From Hyphomicrobiales bacterium (GTDB taxonomy: Bacteria > Pseudomonadota > Alphaproteobacteria > Rhizobiales > JACESI01), in the NCBI GenBank assembly GCA_039973685.1, contig JBDWKL010000009.1:1-64000 (forward strand): DNA of 64,000 nucleotides. Reading direction: 5' to 3'. A program made the translations under genes and the position numbers. The first letter of the stretch is position 1. The number at the start of each line of letters is the position of its first letter. The notes under the pieces are model-generated. The model made no database searches. It worked only from the letters and a program-made list of their open reading frames with translations, and was not told where the DNA came from. Of this stretch, positions 15,184 through 30,982 are shown piece after piece.

Positions 15184-15792
15184 ATGCAGGCTTCGGGAGC
15201 AGCCACAGTATCGAAGATTTCAGATGAGGATCGGTTGCGGGCGCAACTGTACACTCTGCTGGGGCACCTGCTTGCAAACGAACCATCCGAAGAAATGCTA
15301 ACAATAGTTCGCGGCCTTGAAGGCGACGATAGTGATCTTGGCAAGTCATTCCAAAAGTTAGCCGCACAAGCTGAAAAAGCAGGCGTTGATCAGGCCCGCC
15401 ACGAATACAATGATTTATTCATCGGCATGGGTCGTGGTGAACTTGTTCCTTATTGCTCCTATTACCTAACCGGTTTCTTGAACGAAAAGCCGCTCGCCAA
15501 ACTGCGCAACACAATGCGCGAGCTGAACATTAAACGTGCTGAAACGGTTAAAGAGCCGGAAGACGGCATTGGTTCGCTAATGGAGATGATGGCAGGGTTG
15601 ATTGACGGTAGCTTTGGTGAGCCTGCTGACAAAGCCACGCAGAAAGAATTTTTTGACCAGCATATAGGGTCATGGGCCTCATACTTTTTCAAAGATTTGG
15701 AAAAAGCTGAGACCGCAAAACTTTACAAGCCGGTTGGTGAAATCGGCAAACAATTTATGGAGATTGAAAACGCAGCTTTCTCAATGGAGTGA
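15184..15792 (+). CDS. TorD/NarJ-family chaperone for formate dehydrogenase
   Basis: This is a 202-residue all-helical TorD-like protein (YTLLGHLLANEPSEE near the N-terminus; HEYNDLFIGMGRGELVPYCSYYLTG in the middle, with the family's P-Y-x-S-x-Y pattern). Proteins of this family hold the TAT signal and apo-catalytic subunit of molybdo-enzymes until the cofactor is inserted. The start is ATG 15184, which has GGAGG at 15174-15178; the frame is also open from ATG 15145, but no ribosome site precedes that. It is the first gene of the fdh operon, so its client is almost certainly the FdhA encoded two genes later. Confidence 0.85.
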   Translation: MQASGAATVSKISDEDRLRAQLYTLLGHLLANEPSEEMLTIVRGLEGDDSDLGKSFQKLAAQAEKAGVDQARHEYNDLFIGMGRGELVPYCSYYLTGFLNEKPLAKLRNTMRELNIKRAETVKEPEDGIGSLMEMMAGLIDGSFGEPADKATQKEFFDQHIGSWASYFFKDLEKAETAKLYKPVGEIGKQFMEIENAAFSME

Positions 15793-15886
15793 GAGGTTAC
15801 GTTTTTCGGGGGGGCTGATGCTAGCCTCGCCGCGGCTTATTTGGCTGAACAGGAGACAATAGCATCGATTAACGAGGAGGTGCCTT

Positions 15887-16078
15887 ATGGCCCATAAAGA
15901 CGAAGTGACGGCAGACCGCCGTTCTTTCCTCAAGATGGCAAGTGTTGGAACACTTGCTAGTGGCGCAGCTGCACTTACTGGCGGCGCGGCGCAAGCGACT
16001 GAGGAAGTTGAAGTCCAAGGCTCTGGATATAGAGAGAGCGATCACGTCAAGAAAGTTTATGAATTATCACGGTTCTAA
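15887..16078 (+). CDS. formate dehydrogenase-region TAT-target miniprotein
   Basis: The 63-residue protein has a twin-arginine signal (DRRSFLKMASVGTL) and a short mature part of about 25 residues (EEVEVQGSGYRESDHVKKVYELSRF tail, ending in aromatic and basic residues). It corresponds to the small family known from formate dehydrogenase regions (TIGR02811, from memory). An AGGAGG precedes the ATG at the proper distance. The function is unknown; it may be a small periplasmic subunit or an assembly factor of the FdhABC complex. It lies between the chaperone and FdhA genes, and three stem-loops separate it from fdhA. Confidence 0.85.
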   Translation: MAHKDEVTADRRSFLKMASVGTLASGAAALTGGAAQATEEVEVQGSGYRESDHVKKVYELSRF

Positions 16079-16148
16079 AGAACCGCGTTGATTTGTGATT
16101 GTCCGACCATTGCGGTCGGTTGTTGGAGAAACCGGTCCATTTTGGACC
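16070..16148 (+). promoter_or_regulatory. three consecutive stem-loops between the TAT miniprotein and fdhA
   Basis: Hairpins lie at 16070-16085 (CGGTTCT / AGAACCG, 2-base loop), 16103-16119 (CCGACC / GGTCGG, 5-base loop) and 16134-16148 (GGTCCA / TGGACC, 3-base loop). The last ends three bases before the AGGAGG of fdhA. The first overlaps the stop codon of the miniprotein gene. None has a following T-run. They may stabilise or process the mRNA, or tune fdhA translation. Confidence 0.55.
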
Positions 16149-16161
16149 ACTAGGAGGTAAT

Positions 16162-19026
16162 ATGCTTAGGAAGAAGACAGGTGGGGTTGCGAATGGCCCC
16201 CGTTTGTCATCTGCCATTGCAGAACTGGCAAACACCGGCCTTGATCGCCGGGCGTTTTTGAGACGATCCGGTCTCGCCGTCGGAGGCATTGCTGCGGCAA
16301 GTGCTGTGACCGTCGGTACAGTTGAGAAAGCTCAGGCTCAATCATCTGCGGAAAAAAAGGTCGTAAAATCAATTTGTACACACTGCTCAGTGGGTTGTAC
16401 TGTTGTTGCGGAAGTTGAAGACGGCGTATGGGTTGGGCAAGAGCCTGGCTTTGATTCACCGTTCAACCTTGGTGCGCATTGCGCCAAAGGTGCTGCTGTC
16501 CGCGAACACGCTCACGGCGAACGTCGCTTGAAATATCCAATGAAATTGGTAAGCGGCAAGTGGGAACGTATGAGCTGGGATGATGCGATTGAAGAAGTGG
16601 GCGGTAAGCTCGATTCAATCCGCTCTGAAAGCGGTCCTGATTCCGTCTATTGGCTCGGTTCTGCCAAGCACAACAATGAGCAGGCTTACCTGTTCCGCAA
16701 ATTTGCTGCCTACTTCGGCACAAACAACGTGGACCACCAAGCCCGTATTTGTCACTCAACCACAGTTGCCGGTGTTGCAAACACCTGGGGCTATGGCGCG
16801 ATGACAAACTCCTATAATGACATCCACAATTCACGGTCAATCTTCGTGATCGGTGGCAACCCTGCTGAAGCGCACCCTGTGTCTCTTCTTCACCTGATGA
16901 AGGCGAAAGAAGAAAACAATGCGCCTGTTATCGTGTGTGACCCACGCTTTACCAGAACAGCTGCCCACGCAGACGAGTATGTCCGTTTCCGTCCTGGTAC
17001 GGATGTGGCGCTTGTTTGGGGCATTTTGTACCACATCTTCGACAATGGCTGGGAAGACAAAGAGTTCATCCGTCAGCGTGTTTGGGGTATGGACCAAATC
17101 GAGGGTGAAGTTAGAAAATGGAACCCAGAAGAAGTTGAACGGGTAACAGGCGTTCCGGGCTCACAGCTCAAACGCGTTGCACGTACACTTGCTCAAAACC
17201 GTCCAGGCACCGTTATCTGGTGTATGGGTGGCACACAGCACACCAATGGTAACAACAACACCCGTGCATACTGCATCTTGCAGTTGGCGCTCGGTAATAT
17301 GGGTAAAGCCGGTGGCGGTACCAATATCTTCCGTGGCCACGATAATGTACAAGGTGCAACCGACCTTGGCGTTCTGTCCCACACATTGCCTGGTTACTAT
17401 GGCCTGAAAACAGGATCATGGAAGCACTGGGCTCGTGTTTGGGAAACAGACTACGATTACATCCTTGATCGTTTCGAAAACAAAGAAATGATGGAAGGCA
17501 AAGGCATTCCGGTGTCTCGCTGGATCGATGGTGTTCTCGAAGATGCTGACAAGATTGACCAGCCGAACAATGTTCGCGGTATGGTTTTCTGGGGTCACGC
17601 ACCAAACTCACAGACACGACTACCTGATATGGCGAAGGCCATGGAAAAACTCGACGTTCTTGTCGTGATTGATCCATACCCAACCATGGCAGCTGTTATG
17701 TCTGAGAAGAAGGATGGTATTTACCTGCTTCCAGCTTCTACACAGTTTGAAACATACGGCTCAGTTACAGCTTCAAACCGCTCTATCCAGTGGCGCGAAA
17801 CTGTGTTTGATCCATTGTTTGAATCACTGCCAGATCACATCATCATCTATAAACTTGCGAAGAAATTCGGTTTTGCTGATGAGATGTTCAAAAACATCAA
17901 AGTGGAAAATGACACGCCGCACATTGAGGATGTCACCGCTGAGATCAATAAAGGCATGTGGACTATCGGGTATACTGGCCAGTCGCCAGAGCGCCTACGT
18001 TCACACATGGCAAACCAGCACACCTTCGACCGCACAACGCTTCAAGCTGTGGGCGGACCGAATGATGGTGAGTATTACGGTATGCCTTGGCCATGTTGGG
18101 GTACTCCAGAAATGGGTCACCCAGGCACGCCAATTCTTTACGATCCATCCAAACCAGTGGCTGAAGGTGGTTTGACCTTCCGTGCGCGCTTTGGTGTGGA
18201 ACGTGATGGTGACAACCTTCTTGCTGAAGGCTCATGGTCTGCTGGCTCAGAAATCGAAGACGGTTATCCTGAGTTCACAATGGCTATGTTGCAAAAACTT
18301 GGCTGGGATGGCGATCTAACCGATGATGAGCGTTCAGCAATTGACGCTGTTGCCGGTGAGAAAACCAACTGGAAAACTGACCTTTCAGGCGGTATCCAGC
18401 GGGTTGCTATCGAGCATGGTTGTGCACCGTTTGGTAACGCGAAAGCGCGGACCGTGGTCTGGACATTCCCAGATCCAATTCCGCTCCATCGTGAGCCACT
18501 TTACACAAACCGTCGCGATCTTGTGGAAGATTATCCGACCTATGAGGACCGTCAGGCTTACCGTCTGCCGACTGCTTATGCGTCAATCCAGAAGAACGAC
18601 TTCTCCAAAGACTTCCCAATGATTTTGACCTCTGGTCGTCTCGTTGAATATGAAGGTGGCGGTGAAGAATCTCGTTCTAACCCTTGGCTTGCTGAATTGC
18701 AGCAAGACATGTTTGTCGAAATCAATACATCGGACGCCAACACTCTTGGTATTCGTGATGGCAAGCAAGTTTGGCTGTATGGCCCAGAGGGTGGCAAGGT
18801 TAAAGTCATGGCACTGGTTACCGAGCGGGTTGCAAAAGGCGTTGCCTTTATGCCGTTCCACTTTGGTGGTCATTTCCAAGGCGTCGACCAACGCGACAAA
18901 TATCCGAAAGGTGCAGACCCATACGTCTTGGGTGAGGCATCAAATACGGCACAAACATATGGCTACGATTCGGTTACCCAAATGCAGGAAACCAAATGTA
19001 CGCTATGTCGCATCGAAGCTGCGTAG
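16162..19026 (+). CDS. fdhA: formate dehydrogenase catalytic subunit alpha (Mo/W-bis-MGD)
   Basis: This 954-residue catalytic subunit oxidises formate to CO2. A twin-arginine signal (LDRRAFLRRSGLAVGG, residues 27-42) directs the folded protein to the periplasm. The [4Fe-4S] ligands are C72, C75, C79 and C107. The metal ligand is an ordinary cysteine, C197 followed by H198 (ARICHS), in the place of selenocysteine in E. coli FdnG. The start is ATG 16162 with AGGAGG at 16152-16157; the frame also extends upstream to a TTG at 16099, but that region holds stem-loops and no ribosome site. The next gene encodes the four-cluster subunit. A tungstate importer 14 kb away raises the possibility that the metal is tungsten. 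Confidence 0.95.
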   Translation: MLRKKTGGVANGPRLSSAIAELANTGLDRRAFLRRSGLAVGGIAAASAVTVGTVEKAQAQSSAEKKVVKSICTHCSVGCTVVAEVEDGVWVGQEPGFDSPFNLGAHCAKGAAVREHAHGERRLKYPMKLVSGKWERMSWDDAIEEVGGKLDSIRSESGPDSVYWLGSAKHNNEQAYLFRKFAAYFGTNNVDHQARICHSTTVAGVANTWGYGAMTNSYNDIHNSRSIFVIGGNPAEAHPVSLLHLMKAKEENNAPVIVCDPRFTRTAAHADEYVRFRPGTDVALVWGILYHIFDNGWEDKEFIRQRVWGMDQIEGEVRKWNPEEVERVTGVPGSQLKRVARTLAQNRPGTVIWCMGGTQHTNGNNNTRAYCILQLALGNMGKAGGGTNIFRGHDNVQGATDLGVLSHTLPGYYGLKTGSWKHWARVWETDYDYILDRFENKEMMEGKGIPVSRWIDGVLEDADKIDQPNNVRGMVFWGHAPNSQTRLPDMAKAMEKLDVLVVIDPYPTMAAVMSEKKDGIYLLPASTQFETYGSVTASNRSIQWRETVFDPLFESLPDHIIIYKLAKKFGFADEMFKNIKVENDTPHIEDVTAEINKGMWTIGYTGQSPERLRSHMANQHTFDRTTLQAVGGPNDGEYYGMPWPCWGTPEMGHPGTPILYDPSKPVAEGGLTFRARFGVERDGDNLLAEGSWSAGSEIEDGYPEFTMAMLQKLGWDGDLTDDERSAIDAVAGEKTNWKTDLSGGIQRVAIEHGCAPFGNAKARTVVWTFPDPIPLHREPLYTNRRDLVEDYPTYEDRQAYRLPTAYASIQKNDFSKDFPMILTSGRLVEYEGGGEESRSNPWLAELQQDMFVEINTSDANTLGIRDGKQVWLYGPEGGKVKVMALVTERVAKGVAFMPFHFGGHFQGVDQRDKYPKGADPYVLGEASNTAQTYGYDSVTQMQETKCTLCRIEAA

Positions 19027-19038
19027 GAGGAGTATACA

Positions 19039-19635
19039 ATGGCTAGAATGACTTTCCTTTGTGACGCTGAACGCTGCATTGAATGCAACGCTTGTGTCAC
19101 AGCATGTAAGAATGAAAACGAAGTGGCGTGGGGTATTAACCGCCGTCGCGTGGTGACGTTGAAAGACGGTCAACCAGGCGAGCGCTCTTTGTCGATTGCT
19201 TGTATGCACTGCTCCGACGCTCCATGCTCGGCTGTTTGTCCGGTAGATTGTTTCTACCGCACAGACGACGGTGTGGTTCTGCACTCTAAAGACCTCTGCA
19301 TTGGCTGTGGTTATTGCTTCTACGCGTGTCCATTTGGCGCGCCGCAATATCCGCAAGTGTCAAACTTTGGTACACGCGGCAAGATGGACAAATGTACCTT
19401 CTGTGCTGGCGGTCCTGAAGAAGACCTGTCGCAAGCAGAGTTCGTCAAATACGGTCGCAACCGTTTGGCGGAAGGCAAATTGCCACTTTGTGCGGAAATG
19501 TGTTCCACAAAAGCTCTACTCGCTGGTGACGGCGATGTGGTCTCAGCTGTTTACCGCGAGCGCGTTGTCGCCCGTGGCTTCGGTTCAGGCGCATGGGGCT
19601 GGGGCACAGCTTACGGAACGAAAACCGGTGGCTAA
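19039..19635 (+). CDS. fdhB: formate dehydrogenase iron-sulfur subunit beta
   Basis: This is a 198-residue electron-transfer subunit with four [4Fe-4S] clusters. Ligand groups are CIECNACVTAC, CMHCSDAPCSAVCP, CIGCGYCFYACP and CTFC ... CAEMC. It carries electrons from FdhA to the membrane cytochrome b. It has no signal peptide and would be co-exported with FdhA. AGGAGGAG precedes ATG 19039, and the gap to fdhA is 12 bases. It lacks the C-terminal transmembrane anchor of E. coli FdnH, so membrane attachment depends on the gamma subunit. Confidence 0.93.
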   Translation: MARMTFLCDAERCIECNACVTACKNENEVAWGINRRRVVTLKDGQPGERSLSIACMHCSDAPCSAVCPVDCFYRTDDGVVLHSKDLCIGCGYCFYACPFGAPQYPQVSNFGTRGKMDKCTFCAGGPEEDLSQAEFVKYGRNRLAEGKLPLCAEMCSTKALLAGDGDVVSAVYRERVVARGFGSGAWGWGTAYGTKTGG

Positions 19636-19691
19636 ACCAGTTAACTCACCAGCATGCTTTAAGAGCTTAAGCTGTTGATTTGACACCTAAG

Positions 19692-19721
19692 AGGCGGCTT
19701 TTCGTTCCAGAAAAGCCGCCT
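19692..19721 (+). terminator. internal terminator between fdhB and the gamma subunit
   Basis: An 11-bp stem (AGGCGGCTTTT / AAAAGCCGCCT) with an 8-base loop is followed by TTTT. It lies inside the fdh gene series, 57 bases after the fdhB stop. It would lower expression of the downstream genes relative to fdhAB unless they have their own promoter in 19722-19817. Confidence 0.85.
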
Positions 19722-19817
19722 TTTTGCTAAAATCGACAAGCGCTGCAAAAAGCGCGTCTTTAAAAGATTTCAAGCGTCAGTCTTAAAATAAAAGACAACG
19801 CAATAGGGAGTGTATCC

Positions 19818-20969
19818 GTGCCTTACGATACCAATTTGAATACACACAAAAACCGTGCACCGCGTGCTGCCGTGAAGCAGCGTTCTGTCGGCCAGTGGAT
19901 GGCTATTTTATGGCTAATGGCGTCAGTGCTTTTCATTGGTGCGCTTTTGCTTGCACCCACAATGAGCCACGCGCAAACAGCTGAAAGCCCTGTGGCAGGC
20001 AATGTGCCGGGTGGCTCTTCTGGTGCAACGTCAGATTCAGAATTATGGCGAGCACTCAAGGGTGGCGAAAAGCTTACAACCCAAAACAAAGACCCAAATG
20101 CTGGTGTTGCCATTCAAACCAACGGCCAAGAATGGCGGATCATTAAAAACGGATCTTACCCCACCTATTCAGCTTGGGGCATTCTTGGAACCATCGGCAT
20201 TTTATGTTTGTTCTTCGCGATCCGAGGGCGCATCCGCATTGGACATGGCGGCCCGACTGGCGAAACCATCTCACGCTTCAAATTGATCGAACGCCTCGGC
20301 CATTGGCTGCTTGCTTCAAGCTTTATCATTTTGGCGCTAACGGGATTAAACTTGGTCTACGGTAAAGACTTACTCTTGCCGCTGATTGGCAAAGAAGCCT
20401 TTGCATCCATCACCATATTTGGAAAACTGATCCACAATTACGTGGCCTTCTCCTTCATGTTGGCTCTCATTTGGGTTGCGATCGCCTGGATTGCCTACAA
20501 CATCCCTCACCCACGTGACCTTATGTGGTTCCTGCGCGGGGGCGGCATTTTGGGCGGTGGACATCCACCAGCTAAAAAATTCAATGCTGGACAGAAGGTG
20601 ATTTTCTGGGTGGTGATCTTGGGCGGTCTGTCCTTGTCACTTTCTGGTTGGACACTCTTGTTCCCCTTCACAACCGAACATTTCGCCTCCACATTTGGCG
20701 TCGTGAATTCAATATTCGGTAGCGAATTGCCAACCGCTTTGTCCCCCTTGCAAGAACAGCAATTGGCTCAGCTATGGCACGGCATCATGTCAGTTATCAT
20801 GACCTGCATCATCATCGCGCACATCTATATCGGCTCCATCGGTATGGAAGGCGCTGCTGCTGCCATGACAACAGGTGATGTTGACCGCACATGGGCGTCT
20901 GAACACCACAGCCTTTGGGTTGAGGAAGAAGATGCAAAATCTGACCGCGCAGTCCAAGCGGCGGAATGA
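19818..20969 (+). CDS. fdhC: formate dehydrogenase gamma subunit, cytochrome b556
   Basis: This 383-residue membrane cytochrome b accepts electrons from FdhB and reduces quinone. An N-terminal hydrophobic segment (about 30-50, ending SHAQT) looks like a signal or first helix. A periplasmic stretch follows, then about five transmembrane helices: residues near 115-130, 155-175, 190-225, 255-275 and 315-340. The heme-binding type His residues occur in ERLGHWLLA, LIHNYVAF and AQLWHGIMS. The start is GTG 19818, preceded by AGGGAG. It is longer than E. coli FdnI because of the N-terminal extension, as in other formate dehydrogenase gamma subunits of this type. Confidence 0.92.
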   Translation: MPYDTNLNTHKNRAPRAAVKQRSVGQWMAILWLMASVLFIGALLLAPTMSHAQTAESPVAGNVPGGSSGATSDSELWRALKGGEKLTTQNKDPNAGVAIQTNGQEWRIIKNGSYPTYSAWGILGTIGILCLFFAIRGRIRIGHGGPTGETISRFKLIERLGHWLLASSFIILALTGLNLVYGKDLLLPLIGKEAFASITIFGKLIHNYVAFSFMLALIWVAIAWIAYNIPHPRDLMWFLRGGGILGGGHPPAKKFNAGQKVIFWVVILGGLSLSLSGWTLLFPFTTEHFASTFGVVNSIFGSELPTALSPLQEQQLAQLWHGIMSVIMTCIIIAHIYIGSIGMEGAAAAMTTGDVDRTWASEHHSLWVEEEDAKSDRAVQAAE

Positions 20970-20985
20970 AACGAGTGATCGCGTC

Positions 20986-22368
20986 ATGGGCGTTGTGGAT
21001 CACCAGTTACTAAAATTTAAAAGCGCGGCCTTTGCTGTCGCGCTTTTAACTGTGCTTGCACCAAGTGTTGCAAAAGCCAACCCATTTCCTGACAAGTTAG
21101 AAGGCCACGGCGGACCAATCCGTTCCATTGCCGTGTCTGATGACGGCAAAACCGCCCTCACCGCTTCATTTGATTATGGGATTATCGTTTGGGATTTATC
21201 ACCCCACGGCGCGAAAATACGCCACCGCCTTTCAGGCCACGATGCTGCCGTCAATGATGCCGTCTTCGTATCTGGCTCAAACGAAATCGTCTCCGTATCA
21301 GATGACGGTAGCTTTGCTATTTGGAACAGTGAGACGGGCGAACTTTTAGAAAAGATGGCCGACACGCCGGTCAAAGTTCTCGATGCAGCCACGTCACCAG
21401 ATGGCAAGATGGCGGCAATTGCACGTTGGGACGGCACCGCCCGCTTGTTTGATATAAAAGCGCGCAAAGAAATCGCGAAACTTGAAGGCCATCGCGGCAA
21501 CGTTAATTCTGTCACATTCTCAACAGACAGCAAAACGGTTTACACTGGTTCATATGATGGCACCGTGCGGGCATGGCGTTCTGATGATGGTGCGCTTATC
21601 GATCAGGTCTATAACCACGGTTGGGGCATCAACGTCATTGCCGCAGCCCCTGACAACACGCTCTTCTTCGGCGGCTTAGATGGCACTGTTAGTGCTGTCG
21701 ACGCAAAAACGGGCACGCTGAAAAAAGAGCTTTCAAAATTCGACCGCCCCGTCCTCGCCCTCACCTTGTCACCAGATGGCAAGACCTTGGCAAGTGGCAA
21801 TGGCGCTGGTTTCGTCAACCTATATGACACGACAACCCTCACCCAAAAACGCGACGCAGCAGGATCATTCGGCCCTATATGGGGCATTGCCTTCACTGGT
21901 AACAACGATGCGCTTTATCTGGTGGGATTGGATGATTTTGCCAGCTGGCACCCGCTTGGCAAAGGCGCAAAACTGAAGCCTGTCAAAAGCAAATTCCCGC
22001 GCCGTTTTCAATTATCCAATGCTGAGAGCGAAGGCCAATTAGAGTTTCAGCGAAAATGCTCTGTCTGTCACACTTTAACGCCTGATGGCGCGAACCGCGC
22101 GGGGCCGACGCTCTATGACGTCTTTGGCCGCAAGGCTGGCACCTTGGACGGATACACTTTTTCAAAGGCTATTATCGCGTCAAATATCATCTGGAATGCC
22201 AAAACCATCGCACAATTGTTCGATGATGGGCCTGATGTGATGATACCTGGGACAAAAATGCCTGTTCAACGATTAAAATCGATTGAAAGACGCGACGAAC
22301 TGGTAGAGTTTTTAAAGAAAGCAACAGCACCACAGGGTGCTGTAAAACAGGGAGATACAAAACAATGA
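20986..22368 (+). CDS. exported WD40-repeat protein fused to cytochrome c
   Basis: The 460-residue protein begins with a signal peptide (AAFAVALLTVLAPSVAKA), has about seven WD40 repeats (roughly residues 35-325, for example GHGGPIRSIAVSDDGKTALTAS) and ends in a class I cytochrome c domain. The heme motif CSVCH is at residues 358-362, with a likely Met ligand in GTKMPV. I chose ATG 20986 because the signal peptide starts there; the frame is open further upstream over the fdhC end. It starts 16 bases after fdhC, so it probably belongs to the formate dehydrogenase unit. It could dock to the complex through the propeller and take or pass electrons in the periplasm. This role is inference. Confidence 0.85.
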   Translation: MGVVDHQLLKFKSAAFAVALLTVLAPSVAKANPFPDKLEGHGGPIRSIAVSDDGKTALTASFDYGIIVWDLSPHGAKIRHRLSGHDAAVNDAVFVSGSNEIVSVSDDGSFAIWNSETGELLEKMADTPVKVLDAATSPDGKMAAIARWDGTARLFDIKARKEIAKLEGHRGNVNSVTFSTDSKTVYTGSYDGTVRAWRSDDGALIDQVYNHGWGINVIAAAPDNTLFFGGLDGTVSAVDAKTGTLKKELSKFDRPVLALTLSPDGKTLASGNGAGFVNLYDTTTLTQKRDAAGSFGPIWGIAFTGNNDALYLVGLDDFASWHPLGKGAKLKPVKSKFPRRFQLSNAESEGQLEFQRKCSVCHTLTPDGANRAGPTLYDVFGRKAGTLDGYTFSKAIIASNIIWNAKTIAQLFDDGPDVMIPGTKMPVQRLKSIERRDELVEFLKKATAPQGAVKQGDTKQ

Positions 22369-22502
22369 AATCTATTATTGGCGGTATCGTCATTATGGTC
22401 ATCGTCGCCTTTGTTGGCGGCTCACTCTTCAATGCAACATTCAGCCAAACCGCTGGTGAAACACATGTTTCGCAAAACGGTTCTGTTCGGTTGGGTAACT
22501 AG
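22365..22502 (+). CDS. 45-residue single-span membrane peptide
   Basis: The ATG overlaps the stop of the WD40-cytochrome c gene (ATGA), which indicates translational coupling. The peptide has one N-terminal hydrophobic helix (IIGGIVIMVIVAFVGGSLF) and a short polar tail of about 24 residues ending RLGN. A GGGAG lies 12 bases upstream. I do not recognise the family. Its position between cytochrome and accessory genes suggests a membrane anchor or small subunit of the formate dehydrogenase complex. Confidence 0.6.
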   Translation: MKSIIGGIVIMVIVAFVGGSLFNATFSQTAGETHVSQNGSVRLGN

Positions 22503-22527
22503 GGCTTGGTCCCAAAGAAAGAACACT

Positions 22528-22722
22528 ATGTCAGAAGAAACATTCAACATGTCGATGCGCAAATTTCTCAAGCAAGTCGGTGTGACATCACAGCAAGAAA
22601 TTGAACGCATCGTGCGCGACAGCAATCTTGCTGGACAATCAAATTTGAAAGTGAAAGTTGTCCTCACCGCAGAAGGCACAGACCTAAATCATGTGGTCGA
22701 TGGCAACATTGAGCTTGGCTGA
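22528..22722 (+). CDS. DUF6494 family protein
   Basis: This is a 64-residue cytoplasmic protein beginning MSEETFNMSMRKFLKQVGVTSQ, the conserved core of DUF6494 (recognised from memory). It is charged and predicted helical at the N-terminus, with a short beta-type C-terminal half (KVKVVLTAEG). I place the start at ATG 22528, where conservation begins; the frame is open further upstream. It lies 25 bases after the 45-residue peptide and 3 bases before the next gene. Function unknown; the family travels with formate dehydrogenase loci. Confidence 0.75.
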   Translation: MSEETFNMSMRKFLKQVGVTSQQEIERIVRDSNLAGQSNLKVKVVLTAEGTDLNHVVDGNIELG

Positions 22723-22725
22723 TTA

Positions 22726-23454
22726 ATGACCCCACAATTCCCACCCATGATGAGCGGCCACGAATTAAAGGCCGATCAAAGCCCTGCCCGCAAAGCAGTT
22801 GGCGGTGCTGTAAAAGGTAAATACAGCGCCGGTGACATTTTGTGGGTACGCGATGAAGATACCCTTGATTGCGCCATCGTGTTGGAACCTGAGGTTTCAC
22901 GCGAAGAAGCATTGTCGATGGTGTTCACCAAGATGGTGGCCATTGGTGACGCGGTGGGTGCCATCGCACCGCCAGAAATCGCCATCACGTATCATTGGCC
23001 CAACAAGGTGCTGGCAAACGGCGCCTTGATTGGCAAAGTTGACGCGATCTTCAGCGAACGTGACCAAGACGGTTCGCCCGTTTTCATGGTGCTCGCCATC
23101 AATCTCAAAGTCCGACCAACAGCGGATAATATTGATCCAGGCCTTGATGAAAGCCAAACCACTTTATGGGACGAAGGCTGTGGCGATCTTGACGCGCTTC
23201 AAGTACTCGATTCAATGGCCCGCCATTTCATGACATGGATCCACACATGGGAAGAAGAAGGCATGCAGCCCATTCTCACCCAACTTGATGGCCGAATGGA
23301 ACAAGGTCATGCCCTCTCAGTTGGCGGTGAGAACGGGAGCTTTCTGGGGTTAGATGAGCATGCCAATTTGATCTTGAAAAAAGAAGCAGGTGGCAGTGCT
23401 GTGATAAAAGCCATCGATGTGCTCAACACCAGCCTTGAGGCGCATCTGCCATGA
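22726..23454 (+). CDS. biotin/lipoate-protein-ligase-like protein with DUF4444 tail, probably non-ligase
   Basis: This 242-residue protein resembles the catalytic core of BirA/LplA ligases but with altered motifs. The ligand-loop region reads ARKAVGGAVKGKYSAGDILW where ligases have a GRGRRG-type loop. The lysine-containing KWPND motif is HWPNK (HWPNKVLANGALIGKV). A C-terminal domain of about 60 residues (GHALSVGGENGSFLGLDEHANLIL) matches the small SH3-like DUF4444 part. Loss of the key Lys and Asp makes normal adenylation-transfer doubtful. It may bind a cofactor or scaffold a partner. It is tightly placed between DUF6494 and DUF6505 genes; its stop overlaps the next start. Confidence 0.72.
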   Translation: MTPQFPPMMSGHELKADQSPARKAVGGAVKGKYSAGDILWVRDEDTLDCAIVLEPEVSREEALSMVFTKMVAIGDAVGAIAPPEIAITYHWPNKVLANGALIGKVDAIFSERDQDGSPVFMVLAINLKVRPTADNIDPGLDESQTTLWDEGCGDLDALQVLDSMARHFMTWIHTWEEEGMQPILTQLDGRMEQGHALSVGGENGSFLGLDEHANLILKKEAGGSAVIKAIDVLNTSLEAHLP

Positions 23455-23933
23455 AGATGTTAAAGACCATCCATTTTGACCAGACCGACGGCAACGTTTA
23501 CGAGCATCCTGCTGGTACGGACGAATGGGCAATTTCCGGTGCCTTCGCTTTTTCACGGCTTGAAGAAGATGAGATCAAGGGCAAACTGAAACAAGCTTTT
23601 TCAAACGGCTTTCTGTCACTGGAAAATTTTGGTCGTGCAACCTTTGCAACAGTGGCTGAGATTGAAGCTGATCAGAAAACAGAACTGACCGAAAAGCTCG
23701 CTCAACATTTTCATGAAAGCTATGGCGCACCATCGACCAATGTCGCTTTGCCTGTTGCTGGCCACGAGATTGAGTACATTGAATCCCTATGTGCGGAACA
23801 CCCAATCAACACCGTGTTTACTGTCCGTCGTTTTTTTGATGACAACGGCGATATGCGCGAAGAATTTAGAACCGTTACGCCACCATCCGAGCCGATCCAC
23901 ACGAAGATTTGGGAGATCGTCGAAGATGAATGA
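23451..23933 (+). CDS. DUF6505 family protein
   Basis: This 160-residue protein is recognised from memory as DUF6505 (start MLKTIHFDQTD; middle DEWAISGAFAF, GFLSLENFGRATFATV; end EEFRTVTP). It has no signal peptide or membrane segment. The start overlaps the preceding stop (ATGA), and its own stop overlaps the next gene by 8 bases, so translation of the three genes is coupled. No catalytic motif is evident to me. The function is unknown, but strict linkage with formate dehydrogenase genes suggests a maturation or regulatory role. Confidence 0.75.
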   Translation: MKMLKTIHFDQTDGNVYEHPAGTDEWAISGAFAFSRLEEDEIKGKLKQAFSNGFLSLENFGRATFATVAEIEADQKTELTEKLAQHFHESYGAPSTNVALPVAGHEIEYIESLCAEHPINTVFTVRRFFDDNGDMREEFRTVTPPSEPIHTKIWEIVEDE

Positions 23934-24966
23934 TCAAGCTGACACCACACAAGACTTCTGGAAATCAGCGGGTTTTCATCTCGTCAACAAAAATGCCGAT
24001 GGCTGGCTAGAAGTCACCGCCGACTTGCTGCGTGCTTATTACACGCGGCCAGAAATTCACCCAATTGACGAATCCTGTGCGGATGAGCACCGCGTGTTCG
24101 AAGCCTTGATGAGTGATCCGTTTATGACGGTCAGCGATGAAGACATTGCCACCATCAAAGATGCAGCGGCACAAGAAAACTACCGCGTCATTCTGGGCTA
24201 TCGTGATTTTCTCATCAAGCACGGTTCTATTGAAGCAGCTTATAGCGCGCTGTTTAATAGCGGTGAGAACATCACCATCCCGCCGATTTTCATTGATCAA
24301 CTGACCCATCTGATCATGCGCAATGTCATGGATGGCACACACGATCCAATGCAGCTACGTGCTGCCGAACTTTTCTTCCGCGATCAAAAAGTCACCACTG
24401 ACGATGGCCAACTGATGTTTGCCGACAGCGAAATCCTCGACATGCGCCAGAAAGACGGTGGTCTTGGTGGATTGGGCGCGCTGATTGCAGAAAGTGGAAC
24501 GCCCTTGCGCGATGTGTCGCTCGATATTTTAAGCGAGGAAAACAAGGACACCTATAAAGAGCGTTCTGACCGTTTCGATACAGCGATCGATTTCCGCTTT
24601 ACAGAACCCGCCAATGACGCCTTTGCACGGGTGATTGAGAAGTGGGTCGGCCACTTCTTCAAAATCCGCGTGCGGGTGCAGGCCATGCAAACCATCAAGG
24701 ATGATGCATGGCGTTGGCATGTTGGGCTGGACGCTGCGGCCAATGATTATCTCAATAAGCTTTATCAAGGCGAGATCGAGTTTGACCCGACGACCACGAA
24801 ACTCGCAGGACTATTCAGCCTCACATTTCTAAATCGTAACGACGCAGATAAACGCCTTGGCGATAAGCCCGTTTATCTAGGGCTTGCGATGGACAGCAAT
24901 AATGAGGTTAAATTAAAACCACAAAACCTTTTGACCAATCTACCGGTGCGAAAGGCGAACAGCTGA
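23926..24966 (+). CDS. DUF6352 family protein
   Basis: This 346-residue cytoplasmic protein is recognised from memory as DUF6352. The N-terminal DFWKSAGFHLVNKNADGWL, LRAYYTRPEIHPIDESC, IDQLTHLIMRNVMDG, AAELFFRDQKVT and W-G-H-F-F-K-I-R-V segments appear conserved. I take ATG 23926, where the family N-terminus begins; the frame is open upstream over DUF6505. No cofactor motif is obvious. It is the largest of the uncharacterised cytoplasmic proteins in the formate dehydrogenase region. A role in cofactor insertion or complex assembly is a guess from context. Confidence 0.75.
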   Translation: MNDQADTTQDFWKSAGFHLVNKNADGWLEVTADLLRAYYTRPEIHPIDESCADEHRVFEALMSDPFMTVSDEDIATIKDAAAQENYRVILGYRDFLIKHGSIEAAYSALFNSGENITIPPIFIDQLTHLIMRNVMDGTHDPMQLRAAELFFRDQKVTTDDGQLMFADSEILDMRQKDGGLGGLGALIAESGTPLRDVSLDILSEENKDTYKERSDRFDTAIDFRFTEPANDAFARVIEKWVGHFFKIRVRVQAMQTIKDDAWRWHVGLDAAANDYLNKLYQGEIEFDPTTTKLAGLFSLTFLNRNDADKRLGDKPVYLGLAMDSNNEVKLKPQNLLTNLPVRKANS

Positions 24967-24993
24967 GACACTCAGCCTACAGGGAGAGAGCAA

Positions 24994-25329
24994 ATGACAA
25001 CGGCAAATGACGAACGGTTCCTTCATGGCATACCTGCGCGATTTATAATCGGTTTGATCGGCGTGGTCTGTCTCGGGTTTATCGTAACCCACTGGAATGA
25101 AGAAGTGATGGCACTTGGAAGTTCATCGTCAAACGATAACGCTGTGCAAGCCTCGCAAGCAACAAACGGCGGGCGCGTATCAGAAGCGAACCCAGAACTA
25201 GCCGCCTGCCTCGACGAGCGCCTCGGCCATGTAGCACAAATGCAAGAAGACGGCGTGATCAGCGAAAAACAGGCAGCAGCCTTCTCACAACGCGCAACAT
25301 CGCTTTGTAACGTGCAGAACCCATCTTAA
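24994..25329 (+). CDS. single-span membrane protein of unknown function
   Basis: This is a 111-residue protein with one transmembrane helix (FIIGLIGVVCLGFIVTH, about residues 17-33), a polar linker rich in Ser, Asn and Gln, and a helical C-terminal segment with two Cys (AACLDERLGHVAQMQEDGVIS ... LCNVQ). AGGGAG precedes the ATG. It is the last gene before the terminator, so it closes the formate dehydrogenase unit. The topology suggests a periplasmic tail whose two cysteines could form a disulfide. I do not recognise the family. Confidence 0.6.
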   Translation: MTTANDERFLHGIPARFIIGLIGVVCLGFIVTHWNEEVMALGSSSSNDNAVQASQATNGGRVSEANPELAACLDERLGHVAQMQEDGVISEKQAAAFSQRATSLCNVQNPS

Positions 25330-25433: not shown

Positions 25434-25452
25434 ATTATCGATTAAACGGGGC

Positions 25453-26053: not shown

Positions 26054-27202
26054 CTATCGCCTTATCTTCACATGGCTTTGGTTCAATTCAGAAACCTCAG
26101 AACACCCCATCAACCGCATATCGCGTTCCAATTCCGCACGCATAAGGCCAAGGGCGCGATCCACACCAGGCTGTCCGGCGGCTGCAAGTGGATAAAGATA
26201 ATAGCGCCCAACACCGACGGCTTTCGCCCCTAGAGCAAGCGCTTTGAGAACATGGGTGCCACGCTGGATACCGCCGTCGATAATCACATCAAGCTTATCG
26301 CCAACGGCGTCGACGATCTCACTCAATTGATCAAAGGCCGTGCGTGATCCATCGAGTTGTCGCCCTCCATGATTTGAGAGGATAATGCCCGTGCATCCAA
26401 TGTCTGCAGCACGCTTTGCATCTTCAACGCTCATAATACCTTTAAGGCAAAATTGTCCGTCCCATTCTGCAACCATTTTGGCAACGTCATCCCAATTCAT
26501 TGATGGGTCAAGCATATCGGTGAAGTAGCGCCCGATAGACATTGCTCCACCACCCATGTCGACATGTTCGTCCAATTGCGGCAATCGGAACCGCTCATGG
26601 GTCACGTAGTTGATGCCCCACATAGGCTTCATTGCAAACTGGGCAAGGCCGCCGAGTGTGAGGCGGAAGGGGATGGAAAAACCAGTGCGCAGATCACGCT
26701 CACGGTTTCCGCCTGTAATCGAATCCACCGTCAGCATCATCACCTCAATGCCCGCCTCTTTCGCCCGCTGCATCATTGCTGAGTTAAGGCCGCGATCTTT
26801 GTGGAAATAGAATTGATAGACTTGTGGATTGGCGTGCTTTTTACGCAGTTCTTCCATACTCACCGTACCAAGAGAGGAGACGCCAAACATGGTGCCGTGT
26901 TTTTCAGCCGCCGCCGCAACTGCGCGCTCGCCTTGGTGATGGAATAATCGTTGCAGAGCCGTCGGCGAGCAATAGACAGGCATATCGAGTTTTTGCCCCA
27001 TCACCTCAACTGATAGATCAACATCACTCACACCGCGAAGGACATTTGGAACCAAATCACAATCGTCGAAGGAAGATGTATTACGGCGCATCGTGCCTTC
27101 ATCATCAGAGCCGCCATCAATATAATTGAATATCGGCCCAGGCAGACGCTTGCGCGCAAGGGTTCTAAAATCATGGTGATTGTGACACTGCGCCAGACCC
27201 AT
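26054..27202 (-). CDS. lldD: FMN-dependent L-lactate dehydrogenase / alpha-hydroxyacid oxidase
   Basis: The 382-residue FMN enzyme of the LldD/glycolate oxidase family oxidises an L-alpha-hydroxy acid, passing electrons to quinone or oxygen. Visible motifs are FNYIDGGSDDE near residue 25, YCSPTALQRLFH, the catalytic-His stretch LSNHGGRQLDGS near residue 275 and the phosphate-binding DGGIQRG. It is a single gene with repeated ATTGGT boxes in its upstream region. L-lactate is the most likely substrate given length and motifs, but other hydroxy acids fit too. Confidence 0.87.
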   Translation of the reverse strand: MGLAQCHNHHDFRTLARKRLPGPIFNYIDGGSDDEGTMRRNTSSFDDCDLVPNVLRGVSDVDLSVEVMGQKLDMPVYCSPTALQRLFHHQGERAVAAAAEKHGTMFGVSSLGTVSMEELRKKHANPQVYQFYFHKDRGLNSAMMQRAKEAGIEVMMLTVDSITGGNRERDLRTGFSIPFRLTLGGLAQFAMKPMWGINYVTHERFRLPQLDEHVDMGGGAMSIGRYFTDMLDPSMNWDDVAKMVAEWDGQFCLKGIMSVEDAKRAADIGCTGIILSNHGGRQLDGSRTAFDQLSEIVDAVGDKLDVIIDGGIQRGTHVLKALALGAKAVGVGRYYLYPLAAAGQPGVDRALGLMRAELERDMRLMGCSEVSELNQSHVKIRR

Positions 27203-27233
27203 TGATAACTCCTATTCAATGACGATTATTATA

Positions 27234-27503: not shown

Positions 27504-27516
27504 TCTTTGATGTGTC

Positions 27517-29547
27517 TTAGTGCTTGATCAGGAAGTCTTCCATCGATAGCCCCTGCTCTTCGCTATCAATGTAATCTTGCGTCGTACGAATACGAGGACG
27601 CTCGCCTCCAGTGAACGGATCACCGCCTGCTTCTGCTTGGGCTTCCACGCGGCAATCACCGCACATTTTGATAAGCTCTGAACGGCTTTCGTCGGCGAAC
27701 ATATAGTGCTTGCCTGCTAGCTGGTCAGAGATGCGGTTGATGGTTGATTTGGTCGCGAAGGGTGTGCCGCATCGAATACACTCGAAAGGCTCTTCTTCCT
27801 TTAGGGTGATCGGCTGCATGGCGGCGGCTGAAAAATCAAGTTGCGGTTCAAGAGTGAGCGCTTTTTCAGGACAGGTCTTTACGCATAACGAACATTGCAC
27901 GCAGGCTTGTTCAACAAAGCGCAATTTCGGTTCGCCCGGTGTGTCCATCAACGCATTGGCCGGACAGGTGGAAACGCACGCCATACACAAAGTGCAGGCT
28001 TCCAAATTCATCGCAACACGGCCATAAGGCGATTGCTCAGGCAAGGCGATTGGGCCTTCAACGTTTGAGCTTTCTGCAAGTTTTGCAACGGCCATGCGGG
28101 CAAGACTGCGCTTCTCACCGCTCGCTACAAAACTATGCGGTGCACGTTCGCACGCATCAAGATCATAGAGCAGGTTTTCCAAAAGCTCAGGATCAGGTTC
28201 AGTTGAACACTGCAGCGAACCACCTAGCTCTAGGCCTGAAAGCATTGCTTCAACAAGTTCGATTTCAAGATTAAGACCGGACAATTCATCTTGCTTTTGT
28301 GGATCACATAAAAACACGATATCACCGAAGCCTGCCACCAAGGCTGCCAACATTTCTGTATGGCCAAACACAGTTGGTGAATGGACAGCCATTGGCAATG
28401 TGTTCGCCGGAAGCCCACGCGAGAACCGAGCCATCGCGTCAATGATTGGCGTTCCAAAACTATCATCATGCACCAAAAGCACAGGCTTTGTGCCACCCGC
28501 GCTATGGTAGGTTTCGCTCAATGTCATCAAGCGTGTGACCATATCTTGACGGGTCGGGAAATTATAGGAGATCGCGCCTGTTGGACAAACCGAATGGCAA
28601 GAACCACAACCACCGCAAACCAGTGGGTCAATCTCGACATTCTCACCATTAGGCGTGATTGCACCTGCAGGGCATACATCCAGACAGTTAGAGCAGCCTG
28701 TTTTTTGGTTGCGCGAATGGGCACAGATATTGGCGTCATACTCCACATAGATCGGCTTTTCGAACTCGCCAACCATATCGCTTAGATCGAAGACTGCCCG
28801 CATCAAGGCTGCTTGGTCGGTCGGCTCGACATGCACATAGCCATCACGCTTTTCGTGCCCCACCATAAGAGGCGTATCGCCACTCACATCAAGGATAAGG
28901 CTGCATGTTGAATTGACATCGTCTTTTGCCATGATGAAGCTTGGCTCGTGGCGCGATGAAGGCACCAAGGCGGCGTGGTCATCAACGATCACTTTAAACC
29001 CGCCGAATGCGCCTGCAACCGATTTAATTCGGCCTTTGTAAATCGCAAAATCGAGTGTTTGGGGCAACACCACATCACTGGCATCTGTAAGGATTAGTGT
29101 GACAGATAGGCGCGACGATAAAAGCTTAGCTGCTTCCAAGGCTTCTTGACCACGACCATAAACAAGGCACAAGCCATCTGATTGAATGGTACGAAGGCGC
29201 GGTGGTTCTGCGTTATGAAGTGCTTCTTTAATGAGGGCAGCAATCTTAGGCGTCGTTGACGCTTCATCCGTGCTCCAGCCTGCCCGTTCGCGAATGTTGA
29301 CGAACCGTGGTGTTGCTTGAAGCCCCTCTTCCTCGATGATCTCACCGAACAAAGGCGCTTCCTGCGTACAGGCGATAATCAATTCGCCCTCGCCAGTTGC
29401 CTCGCGCTCAAAAGCGCTTAGGTCACGCCGACACAAATTTGAATGAACCTTGAGGTCTCCAACACCCAGAGCATCACCAAGTGCTGCCCCATCAAGTTCC
29501 ATAGTTTTTTCGCAATTACAAACCAATATACGCGACGTCTCGCCCAT
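27517..29547 (-). CDS. polyferredoxin-type 4Fe-4S protein of the formate dehydrogenase region
   Basis: This is a 676-residue soluble protein with four ferredoxin-type cluster motifs: C275/285/288/292 (first spacing unusual), C311/314/317/321, C518/521/524/528 and C549/552/555/559. Further Cys pairs are C590/C593 and C629/C632, a possible zinc or extra cluster site. The N-terminal domain has conserved-looking C10, C12, C39 and C60 (VCNCEKTM, LCRRDL, ACTQEA), reminiscent of heterodisulfide-reductase A ends. No flavin motif is clear. It is divergent from the DUF3305/DUF3306 genes, and this trio recurs near formate dehydrogenase. It may be a cytoplasmic electron donor for maturation or a redox link. 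Role unproven. Confidence 0.82.
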   Translation of the reverse strand: MGETSRILVCNCEKTMELDGAALGDALGVGDLKVHSNLCRRDLSAFEREATGEGELIIACTQEAPLFGEIIEEEGLQATPRFVNIRERAGWSTDEASTTPKIAALIKEALHNAEPPRLRTIQSDGLCLVYGRGQEALEAAKLLSSRLSVTLILTDASDVVLPQTLDFAIYKGRIKSVAGAFGGFKVIVDDHAALVPSSRHEPSFIMAKDDVNSTCSLILDVSGDTPLMVGHEKRDGYVHVEPTDQAALMRAVFDLSDMVGEFEKPIYVEYDANICAHSRNQKTGCSNCLDVCPAGAITPNGENVEIDPLVCGGCGSCHSVCPTGAISYNFPTRQDMVTRLMTLSETYHSAGGTKPVLLVHDDSFGTPIIDAMARFSRGLPANTLPMAVHSPTVFGHTEMLAALVAGFGDIVFLCDPQKQDELSGLNLEIELVEAMLSGLELGGSLQCSTEPDPELLENLLYDLDACERAPHSFVASGEKRSLARMAVAKLAESSNVEGPIALPEQSPYGRVAMNLEACTLCMACVSTCPANALMDTPGEPKLRFVEQACVQCSLCVKTCPEKALTLEPQLDFSAAAMQPITLKEEEPFECIRCGTPFATKSTINRISDQLAGKHYMFADESRSELIKMCGDCRVEAQAEAGGDPFTGGERPRIRTTQDYIDSEEQGLSMEDFLIKH

Positions 29548-29708
29548 TCAGTCCTCCCAAACTGTTTGAAGCGATAGAGAACCACGCCTTTGACCGTTTA
29601 GCAAACATTGCGCGCCAAAAAACTCAATTTAATCAGAGTGCTGTCAATTCTAGGATGACAAGCGGGTTCATTTGAGGCTAGACTTTACATACATTCGGGA
29701 GGAAACCG

Positions 29709-30269
29709 ATGGGCGATCATCAAACCGAAGACATTGAAGACGTACTAACGAAGCGAGAACTATCAATTCCCCTTGGTATAGTCTTAGAAAAACGAAAATC
29801 CACGCACCCTTGGGGTGATTGGATTTTGCGGCCTGTGTCCGTGTTACCAGGTGCTGGCCCTGTCAATGATTGGGTGTCGTTGCACAAGCATGAAGGTGTT
29901 GAGCATTTTCACATCGCAACCTTGCCGCTCACCCTTCACCGCAAAGAGACGGAAGCTTTTAAAATCAACATCGAAAGCGAAAGCCCGCACCTCTATGTGG
30001 TTATGCGCGAAGATGATGAGAGCGAAGAGCGGCCAGTTAGTGTGCATGTGGTGACCGCTTCCCCTTATGACGCTCAAGATTATATGGATACATCTGAAGA
30101 CTTGATCGAGAAAGTCCCGATGCCTGACAGTATTTTGGAATGGATCAAAGCCTTCATCAATGAGCACCATGTTGAGGAAACATTCAAAAAGCGACGTCGG
30201 GATAAATTGAATGTTGAAGATCAGAAATTCGGCAAACAGCCAATTTTCACTTCACCAACCCGCCATTAA
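29709..30269 (+). CDS. DUF3305 domain protein
   Basis: This is a 186-residue cytoplasmic protein of the DUF3305 family (core IPLGIVLEKRKSTHPWGDWILRPVSVLPGA, followed by a beta-rich middle and a helical C-terminus ending in basic residues). The family occurs with formate dehydrogenase and TorD genes in proteobacteria. GGGAGG precedes the ATG. The upstream 161-base divergent region contains TGTCA-N9-TGACA (29642-29660), a possible operator. Function unknown; an assembly role is an inference from linkage. Confidence 0.82.
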   Translation: MGDHQTEDIEDVLTKRELSIPLGIVLEKRKSTHPWGDWILRPVSVLPGAGPVNDWVSLHKHEGVEHFHIATLPLTLHRKETEAFKINIESESPHLYVVMREDDESEERPVSVHVVTASPYDAQDYMDTSEDLIEKVPMPDSILEWIKAFINEHHVEETFKKRRRDKLNVEDQKFGKQPIFTSPTRH

Positions 30270-30292
30270 TCAGGATATTTGCAGGATCAATC

Positions 30293-30982
30293 ATGGCGAC
30301 AGAAGATGACAAAGGTTTTTTCTCACGTTGGTCCGGCCGCAAACGGGCCATAGCGGCAGGTGATGATGTTGTTCAAGATGATCCACACTTAGCGCCGCCC
30401 GTTGATCTGGTAGAGCCTGAAAACGCCGAAGAAGAAACCGCGCGTCTAGCTGAATTGACCGCCAACCGCGAAGCAGCAGAAGCAATTGATATTGAGGCGC
30501 TCGACTACGATTCTGATTATTCCACGTTCTTCAAAGAGGGTGTGCCACCGTTATTAAAACAAAAAGCCATGCGGCTTTTATGGCGCTCCAATCCTGTCCT
30601 CGCCAATATTGACGGGCTTTGCGATTATGATGAGAATTTCGGTGATCCATCGCTTATCTTGGAAAAATTCGAATCTGCTTACCAAATTGGCAAAGGTTAC
30701 TTTGTCGAAGATAAAGAAGATGTCGAAGAAGAAGTTGCCTCTGATGAAGCCCTCGAAGCGGACTTAGAAAATACTGAAGGCGATGACAACTTAGCTGACG
30801 CAAGCGAACAAGAAGAGACTGCAGACGACGAAGTTACTGAGCCTGAATTGACCACGAATGATAATGTTGAGCTTGCTCAAAATGAGACTGATGATCAACT
30901 CGCGAGCGATTTTGAGCTAGAAGAAGTGGCACTAGAACGCCCCCGCGTCTCATTACGCAAGAGACTTCAGTTCGAGAGTTAG
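30293..30982 (+). CDS. DUF3306 domain protein
   Basis: This is a 229-residue DUF3306 family protein. The N-terminus FFSRWSGRKRAI and the core DYDSDYSTFFKEGVPPLLKQKAMRLLWRSNPV are typical. The C-terminal half (about 140-215) is strongly acidic and low in complexity, probably disordered, ending with a basic RKRLQFES tail. It starts 23 bases after DUF3305, so the two are co-transcribed and probably act together in the formate dehydrogenase system. No enzymatic motif is seen. The acidic tail could act as a chaperone-like or metal-buffering region, which is speculation. Confidence 0.8.
   Translation: MATEDDKGFFSRWSGRKRAIAAGDDVVQDDPHLAPPVDLVEPENAEEETARLAELTANREAAEAIDIEALDYDSDYSTFFKEGVPPLLKQKAMRLLWRSNPVLANIDGLCDYDENFGDPSLILEKFESAYQIGKGYFVEDKEDVEEEVASDEALEADLENTEGDDNLADASEQEETADDEVTEPELTTNDNVELAQNETDDQLASDFELEEVALERPRVSLRKRLQFES

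Follow-up and report, generated by a model that had tools for sequence, protein, structure and literature searches.

Companion genes of a respiratory-type formate dehydrogenase in a Hyphomicrobiales bacterium and their possible roles in assembly and electron transfer

Why is a bacterial formate dehydrogenase (FDH) accompanied by a long row of further genes, and what do their products do for it? The question is raised by a stretch of 64,000 nucleotides (nt) from a Hyphomicrobiales bacterium (contig JBDWKL010000009.1 of assembly GCA_039973685.1, a genome of 3.2 Mb in 55 contigs), hereafter the window. Here the enzyme genes fdhABC stand with genes for a TorD/NarJ-like chaperone, a TAT mini-protein, a WD40-cytochrome c, a microprotein of 45 amino acids (aa) called p45, DUF6494, a biotin/lipoate-ligase-fold protein called BPL2, DUF6505, DUF6352, a 111-aa single-span protein, a polyferredoxin, DUF3305 and DUF3306 (Table 1). 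The initial annotation, made from the sequence alone, took most of these for uncharacterised companions that mature, regulate or wire up the complex. We report that the association of the companion genes with FdhA is hardly in doubt. The reading that we favour, with a probability of roughly 0.6, is that of an FDH with its own cytoplasmic assembly line plus a membrane or periplasmic electron outlet, a reading in which we infer every mechanistic step.

Co-occurrence of the companion genes with FdhA

Two genome samples and one set of loci were analysed. The class sample consists of 142 genomes of the same class as the window genome, about one genome per family, of which 22 were taken as FdhA-positive at E<=1e-100; the phylum sample consists of 349 genomes, few of them common to the class sample. 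The named loci are the best 80 of at least 570 stretches confirmed in a DUF6352 profile scan of GTDB species genomes, a set biased toward the window's relatives, and the counts for DUF3306, the polyferredoxin, the WD40-cytochrome c and the 111-aa protein come from it. Co-occurrence was assessed with Fisher's test, in which kinship on the tree is ignored.

In the class sample, DUF3305 is found in all 22 FdhA genomes and in a single FdhA-less one (G125). DUF6352 occurs in 20 genomes, 19 of them with FdhA (p 1.6e-19), FDH-type BPL2 in 15, all with FdhA, DUF6505 above cut-off in 13, of which 12 have FdhA, and p45 at E<=1e-5 in 17, of which 16 have FdhA and the remaining one is G007. With kinship ignored, the p values against FdhA for these five and DUF6494 range from 9e-11 to 6e-25. 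Since the initial annotation had named co-occurrence with FdhA as the test of its proposal, the strong tie of DUF3305, DUF6352, BPL2, DUF6505 and p45 in the 142 genomes speaks in its favour. The counts follow a few decisions. For BPL2, a PF16917 hit in G087 (114.7 bits) was omitted, its locus L041 holding a canonical BirA; 14 of the 15 counted genomes were aligned and G071 was counted by score (148 bits) alone. For DUF6505, G091 fell under the cut-off and was dropped, while the degenerate copy of G119 was kept and counted as FdhA-less. For p45, 44 of the 142 genomes have a match at E<=0.1, and restriction to E<=1e-5 leaves out G096 (4.5e-4), where the match lies on the same contig as the FDH locus. 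The copy in G119 (L053) is a DUF6505-like stretch with an internal stop codon in a genome without FdhA, and G125 (L052) carries polyferredoxin, DUF3305, DUF3306 and fdhD without FdhA at 1e-100; these accessory genes may serve another enzyme there or have outlived a lost FdhA. G007 is also the lone FdhA-less genome with DUF6352, and because its contig starts beside p45, WD40 and cytochrome genes, its FdhA may simply be unassembled.

The phylum sample gives the same direction: FdhA occurs in 53 and DUF6352 in 23 of the 349 genomes, and all 23 DUF6352 genomes carry FdhA. The named loci include some from Stappia and Aurantimonas (L059, L082). Forty of the named loci reach a full 10 kb to either side, and among these FdhA stands in 33, BPL2 in 32, DUF3305 in 32, DUF3306 in 31, polyferredoxin in 29, WD40-cytochrome c in 28, DUF6494 in 25 and DUF6505 in 24; DUF3306, found in 47 of all 80 named loci, is seen as a neighbour only.

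Genes may be kept together without common function, by shared ancestry or by transfer as one island, and the whole block does stand in one order in many named loci. This hitch-hiking is nevertheless very improbable, since the genes also travel apart. In eleven of the 19 class genomes with both FdhA and DUF6352 the two lie within ~15 kb; in six (G028, G051, G087, G105, G128, G135) they are at least ~18 kb away from each other or on other contigs, and in the single contig of G028, DUF6352, DUF6505 and DUF6494 are ~280, ~378 and ~560 kb from FdhA. Concerning the other two, G001 has both genes on contigs ending inside fdhB, and G064 is too fragmented to judge. Co-occurrence thus persists despite unlinking. 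It is seen in a class sample of about one genome per family and, for all 23 DUF6352 genomes, in the second sample.

DUF6494 departs from this picture. Although it was put forward as an FDH companion like the others, only 17 of its 25 genomes in the class sample have FdhA and eight do not. In three of the eight it lies beside sdhA and sdhB (L023, L024, L050), in two beside ccm genes identified from translations (L025, L026), and in L027 and L049 no partner was recognised among the neighbours; the eighth, G030, was left out of the neighbourhood comparison. It is near sdhAB also in two FdhA-positive genomes, at L022 (G028) and L051 (G087), the distance in all five sdh loci being within ~3.5 kb, and in L033 it adjoins fdhD. 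DUF6494 is therefore not FDH-specific, and its position near sdhAB or ccm genes suggests that it may serve membrane redox enzymes in general. One may extend this idea to several members of the set, DUF6494 foremost, which would then act broadly on redox systems of the membrane (FDH, succinate dehydrogenase, cytochrome c maturation) and only have been recruited here. The five sdhAB and two ccm loci agree with such an extension, but DUF6352, BPL2 and p45 do not share the pattern (19/20, 15/15 and 16/17 with FdhA), and we consider it unlikely.

The enzyme and its cytoplasmic companions

FdhA has the features of a respiratory FDH, namely Fe4S4, molybdopterin and MGD-binding domains together with a leader of the twin-arginine translocation (Tat) type, DRRAFLRR (DRRAFLRRSGL), and the Cys within ARICHSTT is the one that we take to be catalytic. 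FdhC exceeds the curated cut-off for the cytochrome b gamma subunit (TIGR01583); its residues 150-372 align to chain C of 1KQF, and an N-terminal extension of ~149 aa lies outside the alignment. The nearest solved structure of FdhA is 9VAP chain A (E=0, 1414 bits over 930 residues), and FdhB matches chain B (E=1.2e-100, 339 bits), which is similarly short, the 198 residues of FdhB standing against 294 in 1KQF chain B. A 2026 review identifies 9VAP as the FdhAB of Shewanella oneidensis, a Cys-W enzyme that tolerates oxygen (PMC13397495). The likeness covers FdhA and FdhB, whereas searches with FdhC, the TAT mini-protein and p45 returned no chain of 9VAP. Judged by these matches, the window enzyme is probably a periplasmic respiratory FDH of the S. 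oneidensis FdhAB type with Cys-ligated tungsten (W) or molybdenum (Mo) on bis-pyranopterin guanine dinucleotide (bis-PGD). Tungsten is considered because of this nearest structure and of a Tup-like importer nearby.

The importer genes lie 2.2 kb downstream of DUF3306. They match the TupA model at 4.9e-64 and the TupB model at 3.1e-52, both below the curated cut-off, and TupA scores 216.3 bits against the tungstate-binding equivalog NF041772, short of the cut-off of 400 that none of the 142 class genomes reaches; for this reason we say Tup-like. A TupA-like protein is encoded in 20 of the 22 FdhA genomes, as opposed to 26 of the other 120, and supply of the cofactor metal is the probable role of the importer. 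Besides, a regulator with HTH_17 and PBP_like (PF12727) domains lies near DUF6494 or BPL2 in some loci (L031:16619-17515; L014, L016), a candidate for a W/Mo-responsive one.

Regarding DUF3305, the window protein matches residues 222-380 of the 382 of the MobA-DUF3305 model NF011058 (E=5.5e-25), but unlike the fused protein it stands alone, with 87.7 bits versus a full-protein cut-off of 820. In L043 and L045, three genes follow one another ahead of the FDH genes: fdhD, one taken as mobA-like by a motif, and DUF3305. The model and this gene order together tie DUF3305 to cofactor preparation.

A part of the set was not new. Bay et al. in 2015 described fdhGHI loci with a NarJ-family chaperone, fdh tat, fer4, DUF3305 and DUF3306 (PMC4464133), so that the TorD, TAT, Fer4, DUF3305 and DUF3306 part of the window is already reported. 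To the loci described in the consulted text of that paper, the window adds BPL2, DUF6505, DUF6352, DUF6494, p45, the WD40-cytochrome c and the Tup-like importer. In the open-licence literature, which leaves most subscription journals outside, we found no paper on DUF6352, DUF6505 or DUF6494, and none that gives BPL2, DUF6505, DUF6352, p45 or the WD40-cytochrome c a role in FDH.

BPL2 was examined as an active lipoate or biotin ligase, and this was rejected on its sequence. It has no Gly-rich nucleotide loop, which is present in the canonical BirA of L041; at the Lys position of KWPND none of 37 sequences has Lys, and the second ligase Lys is replaced in 36 of the 37, window included, being kept in L092 alone. 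Here the loop and the lysines are assigned the roles that they have in active ligases. The family profile matches the structure 3BFM over positions 4-243 (E=1.2e-65). Deposited as a 'biotin protein ligase-like protein of unknown function', a molecule name without function, 3BFM is a member of the BPL2 family, which the present data place in FDH loci.

DUF6352 and DUF6505 were modelled with AlphaFold2 at a predicted local distance difference test (pLDDT) of 92.8 and 91.6. By sequence they match no solved structure (best E 0.4), and their models have no Foldseek match at E<=0.001, which does not prove a new fold; in the VIA fold comparison the best Z was 3.5 for DUF6352 (root-mean-square deviation (rmsd) 4.7, 68 aligned) and 3.1 for DUF6505 (rmsd 4.8, 72 aligned), values that we regard as noise. 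On the models, the two folds are possibly new. Neither BPL2 nor DUF6505 nor DUF6352 has a predicted membrane span or, in the alignments, an invariant Cys, and because the invariant residues include no Cys, Fe-S clusters are unlikely in DUF6352 and DUF6505.

In Escherichia coli, FdhD and FdhE mature the periplasmic FDH-N and FDH-O, and FdhE carries four CX2C motifs, according to the part of PMC10609526 consulted. Measured against that account, the periplasmic Mo/W enzyme of the window would likewise require cytoplasmic maturation before Tat export. It differs in that FdhE (PF04216) has no match in the window genome (G000), nor in the 22 class genomes that carry FdhA, and in that DUF6352 lacks an invariant Cys where FdhE has its four motifs. 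At E<=0.001 FdhE is found in four of the 142 class genomes, all FdhA-less, and in three above the cut-off. DUF6352 was also considered as a distant FdhE and rejected, as it has no invariant Cys and no match to that family; the fold itself gives no exclusion.

Instead of assembling the enzyme, the uncharacterised soluble proteins might control expression or W/Mo homeostasis. TupA-like genes in nine and an HTH-PBP_like regulator in eight of the 80 named loci are what one would expect from this, but BPL2, DUF6505, DUF6352 and DUF6494 match no DNA-binding or metal-binding family, BPL2 matches the ligase half of BirA only, no Cys is invariant in the three larger proteins, and the regulator role already has a candidate. 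We hold such control to be improbable, and an assembly role of the soluble set to be the likelier one.

p45, the WD40-cytochrome c and a model of the pathway

The C terminus of the WD40-cytochrome c is cytochrome c-550-like, below the cut-off, with CSVCH at residue 395 of the 497-aa open reading frame (ORF). Next to it, p45 has counterparts of 41-58 aa, which start with a membrane span and carry [VA]RL in the last residues or close to them, in 33 of 46 loci, namely those with FdhC present and 600 bp beyond FdhC or the WD40-cytochrome, where the counterparts lie, a proportion that is not blind since the VRL criterion was set after inspecting the sequences. The identical criterion selected two of 835 background windows from elsewhere in the same loci on both strands, and the p45 profile was afterwards run on a separate genome set, the 142 genomes above. 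Met1, Arg42 and Leu43 are invariant among the 31 members of the profile, and no Pfam or NCBIfam model matched. Judged by this conservation, the 45-aa ORF is a genuine microprotein. Matches of the profile to Pizza propellers (best E 0.0079, 14 residues) were taken as chance.

Mostly p45 adjoins WD40 or cytochrome c genes or FdhC. In L042, L043, L127 and L155 it lies between separate WD40 and cytochrome c genes on opposite strands, and in L040, where the two are again separate, it flanks the cytochrome gene on the outside. The window has both domains fused in one protein, and this argues for a physical partnership. A gene for a Do/HtrA-type serine protease often stands between p45 and DUF6494 (L055:7935-8543 and other named loci); the window has no room for it there.

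With these data the set may be divided into an assembly part and an outlet part, because of predicted location, cysteine content, the link of DUF3305 to MobA and FdhD, and the absence of FdhE. In the assembly part, the Tup-like importer would supply the oxyanion, DUF3305 with DUF3306 would act at the putative FdhD/MobA step in preparing and delivering the cofactor, the TorD-like chaperone would hold the Tat leader of FdhA, and the polyferredoxin would give electrons or Fe-S clusters. BPL2, DUF6505 and DUF6352 could then form a non-catalytic complex that holds or checks FdhA/FdhB until they are exported by Tat, standing in for the FdhE of E. coli. The outlet part, assigned because the WD40-cytochrome c, p45 and FdhC are neighbours, would be a docking station made of these three, in which p45 would anchor the propeller-cytochrome at the membrane and electrons from FdhB/FdhC could exit to cytochrome c; for this role of the membrane set we see even chances. 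More tentatively, and in our view less likely than not, the locus might represent a second type of FDH assembly, in which a BPL2 pseudo-ligase scaffold with DUF6505 and DUF6352 replaces the checking by FdhE, and p45, with its C-terminal VRL tag, anchors the WD40-cytochrome c so that formate electrons pass straight to cytochrome c and not to quinone only. The suggestion that the companions mature, regulate or wire up the complex is in this way refined: maturation suits the soluble BPL2, DUF6505, DUF6352, DUF3305 and DUF3306, which have no signal or span, and wiring suits the membrane or exported WD40-cytochrome c, p45 and 111-aa protein.

Several observations weigh against the assembly line and outlet, besides the FdhA-less genomes with DUF6494. 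DUF6352 implies FdhA and not the reverse, for it is missing from 30 of the 53 phylum-sample genomes with FdhA and hence is not strictly required for the enzyme. Within the class sample, DUF6505 is absent from ten of the 22 FdhA genomes, FDH-type BPL2 from seven, and p45 at E<=1e-5 from six. Five loci (L085, L086, L088, L093, L104) carry p45 after FdhC with no WD40-cytochrome near, and in G051 p45 is on another contig with no query gene within ~6 kb, which weakens an exclusive pair of p45 and WD40. Where DUF6352 stands alone, the neighbours read were housekeeping genes and gave no clue; the fold searches yielded no functional hint for DUF6352 and DUF6505. FdhE, finally, is rare in the class anyway, and its absence is not significant alone (Fisher p=1).

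Layout of the locus and its meaning

Family matches over the window recover all the listed genes in the order first described (Table 1), with PF02613, PF16917 and all five DUFs above the Pfam gathering cut-offs. Four starts were moved on the basis of ribosome-binding sites or homologue ends. Twelve plus-strand genes run from 15145 to 25329, from the chaperone to the 111-aa protein. From fdhC onward the gaps are 16 nt (FdhC/WD40-cytochrome c), -4 (WD40-cytochrome c/p45), 25 (p45/DUF6494), 3 (DUF6494/BPL2), -4 (BPL2/DUF6505), -8 (DUF6505/DUF6352) and 27 nt (DUF6352/111-aa protein), so that the overlapping or nearly touching genes described at 22365-24966 are upheld. Beyond 25329 the minus strand encodes first a superoxide-reductase-like protein and an FMN-dependent dehydrogenase and next the polyferredoxin, after which the plus strand resumes with DUF3305 and DUF3306.

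Table 1. Features of the FDH locus, with positions in the window
Feature	Position	Strand	Evidence and remarks
TorD/NarJ-like chaperone	15145..15792	+	PF02613 97.7 bits, cut-off 22.2; 40/80 named loci
TAT mini-protein, 63 aa	15887..16078	+	TIGR02811 'formate dehydrogenase region TAT target', 51.6 bits, cut-off 48.45
FdhA, 954 aa	16162..19026	+	PF04879, PF00384, PF01568; start moved to ATG 16162, preceded by AGGAGG; longest ORF from TTG 16099
FdhB, 198 aa, 18 Cys	19039..19635	+	4Fe-4S families; no membrane span by hydropathy
Terminator-like hairpin, fdhB-fdhC gap, T5 after	19693..19720	+	fold -24.8 kcal/mol
FdhC, cytochrome b561-type gamma subunit	19818..20969	+	TIGR01583 143.1 bits, cut-off 115.85
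WD40-cytochrome c, 460 aa, hydrophobic N terminus, one CxxCH	20986..22368	+	PF00400; start moved to ATG 20986
p45, 45-aa single-span microprotein, ends ..SVRLGN	22365..22502	+	
DUF6494, 64 aa	22528..22722	+	PF20104 102.6 bits; start moved to ATG 22528
BPL2, biotin/lipoate-ligase-fold protein	22726..23454	+	PF16917 195.1 bits, cut-off 27
DUF6505, 160 aa, soluble	23451..23933	+	PF20115 181 bits
DUF6352, 346 aa, soluble	23926..24966	+	PF19879 279 bits; start moved to ATG 23926; longest ORF from 23713
111-aa protein, single N-terminal span	24994..25329	+	similar ORF in 25/80 named loci
Superoxide-reductase-type protein, Tat-like start	25453-25878	-	PF01880
FMN-dependent dehydrogenase	26054-27202	-	PF01070
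Polyferredoxin, 676 aa, 29 Cys	27517..29547	-	four Fer4 stretches; no predicted span; 47/80 named loci
DUF3305	29709..30269	+	PF11749 136 bits
DUF3306	30293..30982	+	PF11748 71.5 bits
Tup-like oxyanion (tungstate/molybdate) ABC importer, three genes	33220..35458	-	TupA, TupB model matches

The nearest DUF6352 relative among the named loci listed is L054, from a Hyphomicrobiales metagenome-assembled genome, with 73 percent identity and identical gene order. The superoxide-reductase-like and FMN-dependent dehydrogenase genes split the island in the window; because L054 has neither gene and just a short gap at that place, they look like a later insertion. The 111-aa protein has no Pfam or NCBIfam match, and the two cysteines in its tail are present too in the L032 homologue.

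The fdhB-fdhC gap of 182 nt holds a strong hairpin and then five T. Among the named loci, 16 of 42 fdhB-fdhC gaps contain a hairpin with a T-rich tail versus two of 420 mononucleotide shuffles, a control weaker than dinucleotide shuffling, and GGCGGC stems recur in several relatives. With a hairpin and T tail at this place, fdhC and its followers may form their own transcription unit, or an attenuated one. A scan of 14800-36000 with Rfam gave no RNA family at gathering scores. In several loci a small lipoprotein-like ORF without family match lies between fdhB and fdhC (L033:10669-10869 and relatives), and two FDH loci have a gene for an Mrp/NUBPL-type Fe-S carrier ATPase between DUF6494 and BPL2 (L028:13944-15005, L029:7107-8210).

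What these results offer is, in the first place, a context for the orphan structure 3BFM, for two uncharacterised Pfam families with no match in our searches of the Protein Data Bank (PDB), and for a microprotein; the idea of DUF6494 as exclusive to formate dehydrogenase is corrected at the same time. There is interest in metal-dependent FDHs as catalysts of CO2 reduction, and little has been learned of how they mature. From the locus comes a compact set of helper genes for one type of this enzyme; its relative in Shewanella is, according to the review cited above, oxygen-tolerant and tungsten-containing (PMC13397495).

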